Assembly: GCA_002898315.1 (NCBI GenBank)
Contig: BEHV01000001.1
Coordinates: forward strand, 124,001 to 188,000
Origin: a bacterium HR19
GTDB taxonomy: Bacteria > Calescibacteriota > Calescibacteriia > Calescibacteriales > Calescibacteriaceae
DNA: 64,000 bases
Direction: 5' to 3'
The notes below the pieces were generated by a model. It ran no database searches, had not been told where the DNA came from, and worked only from the letters and a program-made list of their open reading frames with translations. This document shows, piece after piece, positions 25,360-35,894 of the stretch. Within the stretch, counting starts at the first letter, position 1; the number at the start of each line of letters is the position of its first letter. A program made the position numbers and the translations under genes.

Positions 25360-26838
25360 ATGAAAAAATGCTTGTATAATTTATTTTCCTGCTCCATAGC
25401 TCTGATTTTACCTTTCTTAATTTCAAGATGCTCATCTTTGGGAGAAAGAGACAGGGGAATAAGGTTTGCAAGCCAAGGTAAGTGGGATGACGCAATCTCA
25501 CTCCTTGAAAAATATGTGAAAGATAAAATTCAGAAAGAACCAATAAAATCAAAAATACCTTTATCTGCAACCTACAAAGTTCCCGAGTTCTACGAGCTTA
25601 CAGAAAAAGAAAAAGATGAAATGATTGACTTTCTTTATGGGCTTTATTATCTGCTTGCTTCTTATCTTGGCAAGGCGGGATTTGACGAAAGAGAACTTAT
25701 AGAGCAAATCATCAAACTGAAAGATGTTGATGTCTCGAATAAAGATGAAAAAGAAGCAAATAAGGAAATGAGCCAGATAGCAAAAGATATGCTCAAAAAT
25801 CACGATAAGGAAAAACTGAAAGAGTTTCTTTTCTTATGCTTCAAAGCTCAACGGTTATACGAAGAGGTATTCTACGGGAACACAAGAAATTTAGATAACC
25901 CGAACCCAAACCTCAAACTTGAAAATTTGGGAGAACTTGACCCACAAAACGACCAAAAACTCAAAGAGATAAACAGATTAATCAACTCAATAGAGTTCCT
26001 CGGTGGCAAAATCTTAACCCGGAAATTCGTAGTTGAGTCGGTAATCCTCAACCACCCAGATTATTATCTCGGAGAAAAAAAAGATAAACTACCTTCAATG
26101 TGCTGTATCCTGAAAAACGAGTATCCATACAGAACAACCCAACACTCATTAGAAAATATGATGGTAAATGTCATCTACGGAATAGACCTGATACTGTATG
26201 GTGGAGTAAAAGAAGAGACATTCCAGAAGGCATCATCAAACTACTCCGAACTTGTGAGCGACTTAAAAGATAAGTTTGTAAAAAGAGTTATGAGCGAATG
26301 CCAAAGAGCTTCCAAAAAATTCGCTGACTTCCTCACAAATCAAGTAGATATTCCAGAAAAACAAAAAACAAATTTCGTTATGGAAATCAATCAAAATGGA
26401 ATATGGCTATGCCCGAGAGAAGAAAATTTTGTTGATGAATTTTTAGACGAATTCTCATGCAGAACAACAAATTTTATACCACAAATACAAAAAGAGCTTA
26501 AAGGTAGAGTGAGACCACTCCTTCATATTGACGTAGCTGTGAGGCGCCAGAACGAAACAAAATATAAAAACTGTGATGGTCAAGAAATAGGAGAAACAGA
26601 CCTGAAAACTCTCACTTTAAAATACATATTAGACCAAGATGCGGATATAAATGCTGTGCTTTCAGAACTATGCCAGAAAATAGAGTTCGCAAAACCGCTG
26701 ACCAAAACAATATCTGAAATAGAAAAAGAAAATCAAAACAGTATATTTAAAAAAGCAATAGAAAACTATAACTCCGCTATAAGTTCTATTTTTAATTTGA
26801 GAGACGAACCAGAGGAATGCTCAGCAGAGAAAAAATAA
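25360..26838 (+). CDS. Exported protein of unknown function, possibly a lipoprotein
   Basis: A 492-residue protein with a signal-like start (SIALILPFLISRCSSLG). The Cys is preceded by Arg, so lipidation is doubtful even though a Ser-rich sequence follows. Residues 35-50 (RGIRFASQGKWDDAISLLEKYV) look like one TPR helix pair, comparable to that in the 1076-residue lipoprotein. The rest is helical and charged, with many Lys and Glu. No family recognised. It is followed 18 bp later by a beta-barrel gene, so the two are likely co-expressed and may form a periplasm/outer-membrane pair. Confidence 0.75.
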   Translation: MKKCLYNLFSCSIALILPFLISRCSSLGERDRGIRFASQGKWDDAISLLEKYVKDKIQKEPIKSKIPLSATYKVPEFYELTEKEKDEMIDFLYGLYYLLASYLGKAGFDERELIEQIIKLKDVDVSNKDEKEANKEMSQIAKDMLKNHDKEKLKEFLFLCFKAQRLYEEVFYGNTRNLDNPNPNLKLENLGELDPQNDQKLKEINRLINSIEFLGGKILTRKFVVESVILNHPDYYLGEKKDKLPSMCCILKNEYPYRTTQHSLENMMVNVIYGIDLILYGGVKEETFQKASSNYSELVSDLKDKFVKRVMSECQRASKKFADFLTNQVDIPEKQKTNFVMEINQNGIWLCPREENFVDEFLDEFSCRTTNFIPQIQKELKGRVRPLLHIDVAVRRQNETKYKNCDGQEIGETDLKTLTLKYILDQDADINAVLSELCQKIEFAKPLTKTISEIEKENQNSIFKKAIENYNSAISSIFNLRDEPEECSAEKK

Positions 26839-31856: not shown

Positions 31857-33563
31857 ATGGAAGCAAAAAACATAAAAGAAGAGTTAAAGTTTCTGAGGTA
31901 TTTTTTCTCTTATCTCCTAACTCAAAAGAACCTTGTTATACTCTCGGTAATATTTCTTGTAGGGGGAATATTATCAGAAATATCAATTCCGCTCCTCATA
32001 AGGAAGGGAGCAGACAAAGTGATTGACACAAAAAGATTTGAACTTCTTTTAATTTACTCCGGAGCCGTTTTACTTGCAATAATCATCTCAAGCATAAATC
32101 ACTATTTCCTCATATATTTCACAAATAAAGTTGGACAGAACATAATCTACGACATAAGAAAACAGCTTTTTTCTCACATAATAAGGTTGCCAATGAGTTT
32201 TTTTGACAAGACACAGAGCGGAAAATTAGTTATAAGATTGACAAACGATGTTGAAAATCTGAGCGAGCTATTTGTCTCGGGTCTCATAACCTTCACAGCA
32301 GATATACTCATAATAGCAGGAATAATCACAGTACTTTTTATACTGAACTTAAAGTTAGCACTTGTATCAATAGCTGTCTTCCCCATAATGATAATTGTTG
32401 TAATCCTTTTCAGAAAAAAAGCTTCACGAATTTATCTTGAAATAAGAAGGAGAATTTCTGAGCTGAACTCGTTCATAAGTGAGAGCATACTCGGAATAAA
32501 AACAATAAAGATACTTCCAGCATACTCTTTTGCTATAAGAAATTTTGAGACACTCAACAGAAAGTACTCAGAAGAAGTTGAAAAATCAATAATACTCTTT
32601 GCACTTTTCTTCTCATCTATAATATTTATCTCCTCTATATCTCTTGGTTCTGTAATGTGGTTCGGGGGATTAAAAATTTTAGAAAGAGAAATAGGTTTTG
32701 GAACATTTCTTGCTTTCTGGTATGCGGTAAATAAACTCTTTGACCCTATATGGGATTTCAGCGAGAAATACAACATAGTTCAATCAGCGATAGCCGCTGC
32801 AAAAAGAATAAGAGAGATATTCAGCACTCCAAAAGAATACGAAGACCGAAAAACTCAAAAACCAAAACCCAAAATAGAAAAAGGAGAAATAGAGTTCAAA
32901 GATGTGTGGTTTTCGTATGACGGCAAAAAAACGGTAATATCTAATGTATCGTTCAAGATAAATTCTGGTGAAAAGGTCGCAATCGTCGGACTAACAGGAG
33001 CAGGAAAAACAACAATAGCAAACCTTCTCACAAGAGTTTATAAACCCCAAAAAGGAAAAATACTGATAGACGGAAAAGATATTGATGAGTACGAACTTTC
33101 AGAACTGAGAAAAAGCATATCTCTTATACATCAAGATGTCTTCATATTCTCACGAAAAGTAAAAGAAAACATAACACTCGGAGAAGACGATGACGAAAAA
33201 ATGAAAAAGATAATGAAAATACTTGAACAGATAGGAATAGAACTTGACATTGAAAAAGAGATTGGAGAAGATGGAGCGGGATTATCATCAGGCGAAAAGC
33301 AAATAATAGCAACTTTGAGAGCACTATACTTTGACCCGAAAATAATAATATTTGATGAAGCAACCGCATTCGTAGACCCAAACACAGAAAAGAAAATCAA
33401 CAAGCTTATAGATGAGTTATTCCAAGGAAAAACAATTATAAAAATAGCACATAGACCAGAAACAATAAAAACAACCCAGAGAATAATCCTTATAAAAAAA
33501 GGAAAGGTTCAGGAACTTTCACCAAAAGAAATAAAAAACATAGAACTTATATATCAGATTTAA
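31857..33563 (+). CDS. ABC exporter, fused membrane and ATPase domains (MsbA/MdlB type)
   Basis: A 568-residue half-transporter. Residues 20-310 hold six membrane spans with the type IV exporter pattern (RLPMSFFDKTQSGKLVIRLTNDVENLSELF). The ATPase has Walker A GLTGAGKTTIA, Q-loop LIHQDVFIFS, signature LSSGEKQ, Walker B IIIFDEATAFVDP and H-loop IKIAHRPET. The signature's first residues are LSSG instead of the common LSGG. It exports lipids, peptides or drugs; homodimer expected. The stop is followed at once by the Lgt-like gene, so translation is coupled. A lipid-flipping role matches that neighbour. Confidence 0.9.
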   Translation: MEAKNIKEELKFLRYFFSYLLTQKNLVILSVIFLVGGILSEISIPLLIRKGADKVIDTKRFELLLIYSGAVLLAIIISSINHYFLIYFTNKVGQNIIYDIRKQLFSHIIRLPMSFFDKTQSGKLVIRLTNDVENLSELFVSGLITFTADILIIAGIITVLFILNLKLALVSIAVFPIMIIVVILFRKKASRIYLEIRRRISELNSFISESILGIKTIKILPAYSFAIRNFETLNRKYSEEVEKSIILFALFFSSIIFISSISLGSVMWFGGLKILEREIGFGTFLAFWYAVNKLFDPIWDFSEKYNIVQSAIAAAKRIREIFSTPKEYEDRKTQKPKPKIEKGEIEFKDVWFSYDGKKTVISNVSFKINSGEKVAIVGLTGAGKTTIANLLTRVYKPQKGKILIDGKDIDEYELSELRKSISLIHQDVFIFSRKVKENITLGEDDDEKMKKIMKILEQIGIELDIEKEIGEDGAGLSSGEKQIIATLRALYFDPKIIIFDEATAFVDPNTEKKINKLIDELFQGKTIIKIAHRPETIKTTQRIILIKKGKVQELSPKEIKNIELIYQI

Positions 33564-35177
33564 ATGCTACCCTATATAATAATAGGGGACCTGAAAATTC
33601 CAGTATTTTCGTTTGGACTATCAATTGTATTTTTGGTCTTTCTGTTTCTATGCATAAAGTCAGCAGAAGAAAAAGGTTTAGGAGAAAACACAGGAATAGA
33701 AATATCACTTCTTATCGCTTTTTCAACAATAACATTCTCAAAAATCCCTCTTGGAGTAATATATGGATGGAAAATAAGTTCTATTTTGAAGTTCTGGGAA
33801 ACGGGGCACTCCCTCTTTTCAGCTCTGATTATAGGAACAACAATAATCTTCATATACTCAAAAATAAAAAGAGTAGATTTTTATGAGCTTTTATCAGTCC
33901 TGACATACCCAACATTTTTTTCGCTTTCGCTTTACAGAATTTTTGTCTGTCTTCCGACAGGTTGCTGTTATGGATTCCCTTCAAGATTCGGAATAACATT
34001 CTCTCAAGAATCTTATGCTTCCCGCGACCTCGGAGTTGCGGCGGCAAAACTCTTTCCCTCACAAATAATAGAAGCAATACTGTTTTTCATCTGCGGAACA
34101 ATATCGTATTTCAAGAGAAAAGATAAAGCAGAAAATAATATCCAGCTTTTCCTACTTCTCCTCACTCTTGAAAGAATAATAGCCGAATTCATAAGAAGAG
34201 ATATAAAAGAAAAAATAATAAAAGCAGGCGATTACGGAATAAGTGTATGGCTTGTTCTATCTATAATACTCTTTTCAGCAACATCAATTTACTTTAATCT
34301 CCTCAAACCCTACATAAAATCGTTCAGAGAAAAAATGAAGGGAAACGGAACAAAAATTTTCAAAATTGGTGCGATAGCTTTTCTTCTTTTCTCACAGCTT
34401 GTGATGTGTAGCGATAAAAAATCAAATGTTGACTTCTCCGCAGTTGAGAACTCTCTCAGGTCAGCTTTCTCACTATCATACACAGCTATGTTCGTATCAT
34501 ACATTTTCCTGAAAATAAAAGGTTTTTTGGGAAGCTGTATATATAGAGATGGAGAAAACAAAATAGTAGTAGATTGCGAATTTGATGTGAGAATTTTATC
34601 AGCAGAAAAGATAAAAACAAGAGGAACTTGCGATTTCTCGTCTTTCCAGAACTCAATAACCTTCTCAAACTGCAAGCTTCAGATGAACGGAACCAACTTC
34701 TACGGCGAAATAACGGGAAATACAACACTGAAAGAACAATCAGAGGTCTATATTGATAATGTGACAGTATCTGTTATAAAGAGTTTATACTCAAACTTCA
34801 CAGCAGAAATAACAGAAACGAGGTCCTCACTTGTGAGTATTCAAGGAGAAAGCACGCGGATTTTTAAAATCAGCGGAAAAATAAAAATAGAAAAAACCGA
34901 AATATCAGCGGAGAAAATTTTTCTACTTGATGAAGGTGTAGAAAGAATAGGCGTTATGATAGATGGTTCAGTAAGCATAAAAGGATGTAAAAATTCCAAC
35001 CTTGATGTGAAAACAGAAAATTTTGTGTATTTTGACGAGCAAGGATGTCCATCTGGCTCAGCAGAAATAAACGGAGAAAAAATCTATTTTTCTTCAAAAG
35101 AATTATATACACAAAACAAAAAACTCTCATCTCCTTGCAGAGGAGAAAAATCAGAATGCTATCTTTTATATTTTTGA
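33564..35177 (+). CDS. Lgt-like prolipoprotein diacylglyceryl transferase fused to a lipoprotein-like domain
   Basis: A 537-residue protein. Residues 1-250 form an Lgt-like membrane domain with about seven spans: GHSLFSALIIG, LYRIFVCLPTGCCYGFPSRF (R125 aligned with the Lgt GRxGNF arginine) and LERIIAEFIRRD, the distal Arg motif. Lgt adds diacylglycerol to lipobox cysteines. Residues 262-282 (TKIFKIGAIAFLLFSQLVMC) look like a second signal, ending in Cys282-SDKKSN, with Met at -1 instead of Gly/Ala/Ser. Residues 283-537 are a beta-rich extracellular-type domain rich in Ser, Thr and Cys. An internal ATG at codon 258 could also produce the second part alone. Genes on both sides touch this one without gaps. 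Confidence 0.78.
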   Translation: MLPYIIIGDLKIPVFSFGLSIVFLVFLFLCIKSAEEKGLGENTGIEISLLIAFSTITFSKIPLGVIYGWKISSILKFWETGHSLFSALIIGTTIIFIYSKIKRVDFYELLSVLTYPTFFSLSLYRIFVCLPTGCCYGFPSRFGITFSQESYASRDLGVAAAKLFPSQIIEAILFFICGTISYFKRKDKAENNIQLFLLLLTLERIIAEFIRRDIKEKIIKAGDYGISVWLVLSIILFSATSIYFNLLKPYIKSFREKMKGNGTKIFKIGAIAFLLFSQLVMCSDKKSNVDFSAVENSLRSAFSLSYTAMFVSYIFLKIKGFLGSCIYRDGENKIVVDCEFDVRILSAEKIKTRGTCDFSSFQNSITFSNCKLQMNGTNFYGEITGNTTLKEQSEVYIDNVTVSVIKSLYSNFTAEITETRSSLVSIQGESTRIFKISGKIKIEKTEISAEKIFLLDEGVERIGVMIDGSVSIKGCKNSNLDVKTENFVYFDEQGCPSGSAEINGEKIYFSSKELYTQNKKLSSPCRGEKSECYLLYF

Positions 35178-35894
35178 ATGATGAAAAATATATTTTACAT
35201 TTTCAAAGAAACATTTCTTGAAATTTTTCTTCCTCCAATTTGTGTTATATGCGAATCAAAAGAAGGCAAAATGCTCTGTGAAGCATGTTTCAGGAAAATA
35301 AAGTTTGTAGATGAATTCCAGAAATGTCCGAGATGTTCTCTTGTGTTCTACGATAGTGTTCCTGAAAAATGCCCAAATTGTGAGAGATTATCTCCTAAAT
35401 TCTCAAAGCTTGTTTCTATCTTCGTATATGAGGAATACGGAGAAAAACTGATAAGAAAAATAAAATTTGAAAACAAGTTGAAGGTAGTGGAGGAATTTTC
35501 AGACATGATAAAGTCAAAACTTGAAGAAATAGATTTTGACATAGTAGTTCCGATACCATCTTATACAAGAAAGTGGATAAAAAAAGGATATATTCCATCT
35601 GTGAAGATAGCGAAGGTGATTTCTGAAAATCTCAGAAAGCCAATCGTTCCTCTTATAAGAAAATCAAAGGAGATTCCATCTCAGCTTGAGCTGAGTTCAG
35701 AAGAGAGATTGAAAAATCCTAAAGACGCCTTTGAAGTTATAGGAAGCAAGATAAATTACAGAAGAATTCTTCTCGTTGATGATGTAGCGACAACAACTGC
35801 AACACTATGCGAATGCACAAGAATACTTCTTGAAAAAGGAGCCGATGAGGTTTTCTGCTTCTCACTCGCAAGAACCCCACTCAAAACACTGTAA
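35178..35894 (+). CDS. comFC: ComF-family phosphoribosyltransferase-like protein
   Basis: A 238-residue ComFC. The N-terminal zinc-ribbon has CVICESKEGKMLCEACF and CPRCSLVFYD with CPNCERL. The C-terminal phosphoribosyltransferase fold has VPIPSYTRKWIKKGYIPS and the PRPP loop ILLVDDVATTTATL. ComF proteins are needed for DNA uptake in competent bacteria; the ComEA-like gene at 60549 points to the same process. It follows the Lgt-like gene with no intervening base. Confidence 0.9.
   Translation: MMKNIFYIFKETFLEIFLPPICVICESKEGKMLCEACFRKIKFVDEFQKCPRCSLVFYDSVPEKCPNCERLSPKFSKLVSIFVYEEYGEKLIRKIKFENKLKVVEEFSDMIKSKLEEIDFDIVVPIPSYTRKWIKKGYIPSVKIAKVISENLRKPIVPLIRKSKEIPSQLELSSEERLKNPKDAFEVIGSKINYRRILLVDDVATTTATLCECTRILLEKGADEVFCFSLARTPLKTL

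Follow-up and report, generated by a model that had tools for sequence, protein, structure and literature searches.

The window, that is, the whole 64,000-nucleotide stretch of DNA analyzed here, belongs to the 1.88 Mb genome (22 contigs) of bacterium HR19, a member of Calescibacteriota, which is a candidate phylum known from hot springs and judged to be diderm (PMC4791363). A scan of named genomes identified Candidatus Calescibacterium nevadense and two assemblies of uncultured bacteria as the closest relatives of this genome, and comparisons within the phylum cover five Calescibacteriota genomes, designated G000 (that of the window), G001, G002, G003, and G004. The locus under study encodes a single protein that combines a domain of the diacylglyceryl transferase (Lgt) family, a basic linker, a hydrophobic helix, and a secreted β domain (Table 1). 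Its hydropathy profile consists of seven spans, a basic loop, and an eighth hydrophobic segment (about residues 265–281) that ends at Cys282. The preliminary description had read the gene as a seven-span Lgt-like domain followed by a signal-like helix leading to Cys282 and a secreted β domain, an architecture that is borne out by the open reading frame, the Pfam matches, the hydropathy, and the structural model.

Table 1. Features of the fusion gene and the adjoining genes (positions in the window)
Feature	Position	Strand	Basis or remark
ABC exporter (membrane + ATPase)	31857..33563	+	PF00664 + PF00005; stop directly adjoins the fusion start
Whole Lgt2–lipoprotein fusion gene, 537 aa	33564..35177	+	Single uninterrupted ORF; full-length orthologues in three other genomes
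Lgt-family domain (Lgt2), residues 1–244, seven hydrophobic spans	33564..34295	+	PF01790 and hydropathy
Arg125, equivalent of E. coli Lgt Arg143	33936..33938	+	53/53 comparison Lgts, 5/5 in the clade
GCCYG signature of the CC-type Lgt family, residues 133–137	33960..33974	+	Alignment
Arg204, Glu208, Arg211, equivalents of E. coli Arg239, Glu243, Arg246	34173..34196	+	Alignment
Basic linker (residues 245–264) joining span 7 to the signal-like helix	34296..34355	+	6 K/R, 1 D/E
Possible internal start ATG (Met258)	34335..34337	+	25 residues from Met to Cys, the same spacing as in the G004 lipoprotein
Signal-like hydrophobic helix, residues 265–281	34356..34406	+	Hydropathy and alignment
Cys282 (codon TGT), candidate lipidated cysteine	34407..34409	+	Invariant in 5/5 Calescibacteriota genomes; odd ninth Cys
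Secreted domain: N-terminal helix and antiparallel β meander, eight conserved Cys	34410..35174	+	AlphaFold2 pLDDT 83
comF-like gene	35178..35894	+	DZR_2 + Pribosyltran; start directly adjoins the fusion stop

An orthologue of the ABC exporter gene is located directly 5′ of the fusion in all four genomes that contain it. G003 and G001 have two such exporter genes in tandem, preceded in G003 by a gene for an LptB-like ATPase. This neighborhood suggests, by association only, that the lipoprotein has a role in the envelope or in lipid export. The comF gene directly follows the fusion in the window and in G002. In G003 and G004, the Lgt2–lipoprotein genes are followed by a gene for a polytopic membrane protein (L036 9651–10460; L103 8570–9409) of 269–279 amino acids, with 36–37% identity between the two and no Pfam match. 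The order of an Lgt gene and then comF recurs in other phyla (L089, L093, and L096), with a rodA-like gene ahead of the pair in the latter two (L093 and L096); the matching order of the fusion and comF (33564–35894) suggests an old synteny for the second Lgt.

Residues 7–240 of the fusion protein match the Pfam LGT model (PF01790) over profile positions 6–234 of 240 with 63.8 bits (cut-off 24.9), which places the domain in the family, and its score of 68.6 bits with the NCBIfam Lgt equivalog model falls far below the cut-off of 334 for that model. A typical Lgt is encoded elsewhere in the same genome (contig C8, 159.7 bits), and the window gene is therefore a second, divergent copy, termed Lgt2. 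A phmmer search of the PDB with the Lgt part gave no match. The region from Arg204 to Arg211 lies in the motif ERIIAEFIR, whose counterpart we take to be FRIIVEFFR of E. coli Lgt. No tested substitution is tolerated at Arg143, Arg239, Glu243, or Arg246 of E. coli Lgt, and these residues are essential (PMC4728403); their equivalents Arg125, Arg204, Glu208, and Arg211 are invariant in all five Calescibacteriota genomes. Lgt2 thus shares with E. coli Lgt (PF01790; PMC4728403) the seven spans and the four catalytic equivalents, and its GCCYG-type signature is common to the sampled CC-type Lgts, which come from many phyla. The CCYG motif was considered as the mark of a special subfamily and rejected, as it also occurs in the canonical Lgts of the phylum and in those of many other phyla; the 53 comparison Lgts are all of the CC type, CCYG having been the search motif for that set.

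Lgt2 differs from the other CC-type Lgts in being a divergent second copy, in the loss of conserved positions, and in carrying a 255-residue secreted domain at its C terminus. An Asp that precedes the signature in 53 of the 53 other CC-type Lgts is replaced in the Lgt2 clade by Ser, Val, or Ala (window residue 111), the signature Gly has become Val128, and Phe85 or Val occupies E. coli position 103 in place of Tyr or His; Tyr26 corresponds to Phe, at a site where the alignment register is uncertain. Residue 103 is known to differ naturally among phyla, being His, Tyr, or Trp (PMC13251419), and as aligned here Phe or Val at this site is a further step beyond that variation. The branch leading to the Lgt2 clade in the tree is long (2.06 changes per site). 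Enzymatic activity of Lgt2 is plausible given its catalytic residues, and the loss of near-invariant positions means that it could also be inactive or use another substrate.

LspA and a separate canonical Lgt are encoded in all five Calescibacteriota genomes. The host machinery for a lipoprotein is thus present throughout, and processing of Cys282 would be possible even if Lgt2 had no activity. The canonical Lgt of the phylum has about 332 amino acids (L102 6908–7906; L054–L056); its match to the Pfam model is split in two, which indicates that several dozen residues are inserted ahead of the last spans.

Full-length orthologues of the fusion protein occur in three further assemblies, with identities to the window protein of 87% (G002), 47% (G001), and 42% (G003), so that the architecture, which the preliminary description had proposed seeking in related genomes, recurs there. 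The dN/dS ratios of the closest pair, the window and G002, are 0.10 (Lgt part), 0.06 (linker and helix, with few synonymous counts in the linker), and 0.21 (β part), values that indicate purifying selection on both halves and across the junction. In G004, the two halves are separate genes: a 265-amino-acid Lgt2 ends in TGA, and the ATG of the next gene overlaps it (ATGA) in another frame. The separation in G004 is what one might expect if two genes had been joined elsewhere by an error of assembly or sequencing, and the preliminary description had named separate genes split by a stop exactly at the junction as a sign of such an error. The parts are indeed separate in this genome, but the second half of that expectation fails: the G004 frames differ, an in-frame stop lies shortly 5′ of the second gene's own start codon, and four independent assemblies, with 42 to 87% identity, carry the fused frame. 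Together with purifying selection across the junction, this excludes a sequencing or assembly error, the chance of which we regard as negligible. Judged from these sequences, the Lgt–lipoprotein gene fusion is a genuine and conserved architecture. It is also apparently undescribed: the preliminary description knew of no fusion of this kind, and a search of the open-access literature likewise found no published Lgt–lipoprotein fusion.

The product of the second G004 gene begins with MRTKKKTTNKKIAILMILLTLTQNC, a lipoprotein-type (type-II-like) signal peptide at the N terminus, and continues with the same secreted domain; its Cys aligns in register with Cys282. The earlier suggestion that the second half of the window protein is lipoprotein-like is thereby strengthened, since this half is homologous to a stand-alone gene product whose signal ends at the same Cys. 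G004 groups with the fused G003 in each of three trees, those of the Lgt2 domain (supports of 87/83), the secreted domain (84/86), and the canonical Lgt (100/99). This grouping implies either a single early fusion followed by a split in G004 or two fusion events, and under either history the halves work both joined and apart. In the window protein and that of G002, Met258 is as far from the Cys as the first residue of the G004 lipoprotein, perhaps a relic of a separate start.

The second half has the features of a lipoprotein, namely a basic n-region, a hydrophobic h-region, a Cys, and a polar secreted domain, with these at the N terminus of a protein only in G004. Eight Cys residues of the secreted domain are invariant in all five genomes, and the Cys282 equivalent is a ninth. 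The eight would be expected to pair, which leaves the Cys at the junction as the odd one out. Most of the sequences depart from the canonical lipobox, in which Gly, Ala, or Ser precedes the Cys: they are LVMC, LVRC, IINC, and TQNC, and only FSSC fits at position −1. Lipoprotein candidates of the phylum include ISRC, TIQC, LNKC, and LSKC, besides several with Ser, and in a small sample of about 200 kb of Calescibacteriota DNA (window 25360–26838 being among the places), taken with a rough filter, about half of the candidates have Arg, Lys, Gln, Asn, Leu, or Phe before the Cys. As bulky residues at this position are common among the candidates, LVMC, LVRC, and IINC are within the range of the phylum. 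By the same rough filter, the Calescibacteriota lipobox seems unusually loose, as in Leptospira.

The secreted domain is restricted to the phylum (5 of 386 genomes). AlphaFold2 models the remaining 255 residues as a helix and a long antiparallel β meander (pLDDT 83, pTM 0.83); the model of the full-length fusion is poor (pLDDT 65, pTM 0.42), and its placement of the helix against the Lgt domain is unusable. Foldseek with the β domain model returned no match at E < 0.001. Identification of the domain by its fold was abandoned, as the VIA-align matches (apolipoprotein B, outer-membrane barrels, OspA, and LptC) are at background level, with Z of about 8 or less; the LptC chain 6mit_C, at Z 5.0, stands among equally weak matches. 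The sole LptD_N/LptA-type match in each genome is situated elsewhere, outside the fused domain. G002 also encodes a stand-alone lipoprotein-like protein, with a signal and Cys of its own, that matches the last ~64 alignment columns of the secreted domain (hhalign probability 89, E 2.3e-6). Neighboring open reading frames of G002 (L044 907–2043 and 2443–3240) share a Cys-rich β-type module related to this end of the domain, and the former has a lipoprotein-like signal. A proposed likeness between the β domain and the L046-type lipoprotein was dropped after profile comparison gave a probability of only 4%.

The preliminary description had also raised internal translation at codon 258 as a means of releasing the second half. 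Translation from this codon would yield a separate lipoprotein beside or instead of the fusion, and the window and G002 do have an ATG here (34335 in the window) at a distance of 25 residues from the Cys, a spacing identical to that in the stand-alone gene of G004, with GGAG five bases 5′ of the ATG in G002. The site in the window offers GAG only, and Shine-Dalgarno-like matches that short are common at internal ATGs and often missing at true starts in these genomes. G001 and G003 lack the ATG, alternative start codons there are unpromising, and synonymous change near codon 258 is not reduced. Internal initiation is thus possible in two genomes but is no conserved mechanism, and we regard it as very unlikely.

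We propose a model, to which we give an even chance, in which Lgt2 and a Calescibacteriota-specific lipoprotein form a dedicated enzyme–substrate pair that is made as a polyprotein, with lipidation of Cys282 and probable cleavage by LspA before it. The seven-span Lgt2 domain would end in the cytoplasm, and the basic linker and hydrophobic helix would act as an internal lipoprotein signal and carry the Cys-rich β domain across the membrane. Either Lgt2, in cis or in trans, or the housekeeping Lgt would then diacylglycerate Cys282, before which LspA would probably cut, freeing the lipoprotein from the enzyme. In the periplasm, the β domain perhaps partners the ABC exporter of the preceding gene. 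Lipidation of Cys282 by Lgt2 itself is an attractive though somewhat doubtful part of this scheme. The strict form, a self-lipidating polyprotein in which the Lgt paralogue diacylglycerates the Cys of its own attached lipoprotein and LspA frees that lipoprotein, so that the two are always made one to one, is conceivable but on the unlikely side. Bradyrhizobium fbcH encodes a cytochrome b-c1 polyprotein in which a membrane protein is fused to a secreted protein and which is cut at an internal signal sequence; this is done by signal peptidase I and not by the lipoprotein pathway. We know of no polytopic protein whose internal signal sequence is a substrate of Lgt or LspA.

Several other readings compete with the polyprotein model. 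The fusion might be permanent, the helix being an uncleaved eighth span and the β domain a tethered accessory that recruits substrates or handles lipid, with Cys282 lipidated or not. Retention of the fusion in four genomes under selection across the junction is consistent with this, as are the non-canonical residue before the Cys (Met, Arg, or Asn) and a weak resemblance of the β meander to single-layer or groove-like sheets such as those of LptC, OspA, and apolipoprotein B. Such structure matches, at Z of about 8 or less, prove nothing, and the occurrence of the same domain as a free lipoprotein-type protein in G004, together with an invariant Cys282 that is odd in number, makes permanent tethering unlikely. 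Alternatively, Lgt2 could be a pseudoenzyme or have changed its substrate, serving as a membrane scaffold or in another lipid transfer while the canonical Lgt modifies Cys282. The lost near-invariant positions, the long branch, and the presence of a canonical Lgt in every genome point in this direction; retention of all four catalytic-network residues that are intolerant of substitution in E. coli, and the low dN/dS of the Lgt part (0.10), point away from it, and we consider it quite improbable.

Lgt2 could also be a second Lgt of general use, suited to lipoboxes with a bulky residue before the Cys, as proposed for the Leptospira enzyme, with the fused lipoprotein as one substrate among several. 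One report describes flexible lipoboxes, with bulky residues before the Cys, and a divergent Lgt in Leptospira, and two Lgts in its relative Leptonema (PMC4758666); the frequency of bulky residues before the Cys in the 200-kb sample fits such a role. That sample is small and was roughly filtered, and a general role would leave unexplained both the fusion and the ATGA coupling with one particular lipoprotein, so that this reading is again a decidedly doubtful one. Calescibacteriota thus resemble Leptospira and Leptonema in having a divergent Lgt, a second copy (in Leptonema), and loose lipoboxes, and differ in that the accessible part of that report describes no fusion or coupled lipoprotein gene (PMC4758666).

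Other known systems resemble the arrangement in part. M. tuberculosis Lgt also has a long C-terminal addition (PMC13251419), which is described as lacking homology to known proteins; the addition in the fusion instead comprises a signal-like helix and a conserved Cys, and it has a stand-alone lipoprotein homologue. A rhombosortase with one GlyGly-CTERM target (PMC3237569) is likewise a processing enzyme beside a single target; it differs in its chemistry and in being encoded by a gene separate from that of its target. Among the Lgts sampled outside the phylum, none has a C-terminal domain of this kind: 98–205 residues follow the signature motif in the comparison Lgts, as against 407–417 in the fused proteins. 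Open reading frames of 404–695 amino acids around Lgts elsewhere, which gave the appearance of other fusions, were rejected as spurious upstream extensions. Only a few of 57 loci have a lipoprotein gene following lgt, with no evidence of enrichment. At one locus of another phylum (G039 L029, Lgt stop at 2223, minus strand), the Lgt gene has an ATGA overlap with a small gene whose product starts with MKRTIALVLLILMVGGCS, a classical lipoprotein signal, and this pair is possibly a second, unrelated Lgt–lipoprotein coupling. A further locus (G182 L081, from 2267 on) has an Lgt-like gene without the CC motif directly after, and overlapping, an Lgt gene, the two being tandem paralogues.

Lgt is regarded as a general enzyme that serves every lipoprotein in the cell. 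A divergent second copy that is fused or coupled to one lipoprotein would constitute a one-enzyme-one-substrate version of the lipoprotein pathway, and the fusion would place an internal lipoprotein signal inside a polytopic protein. It would also supply a natural covalent enzyme–substrate complex, which would be useful because the published E. coli Lgt structure is without an acceptor peptide (PMC4728403).
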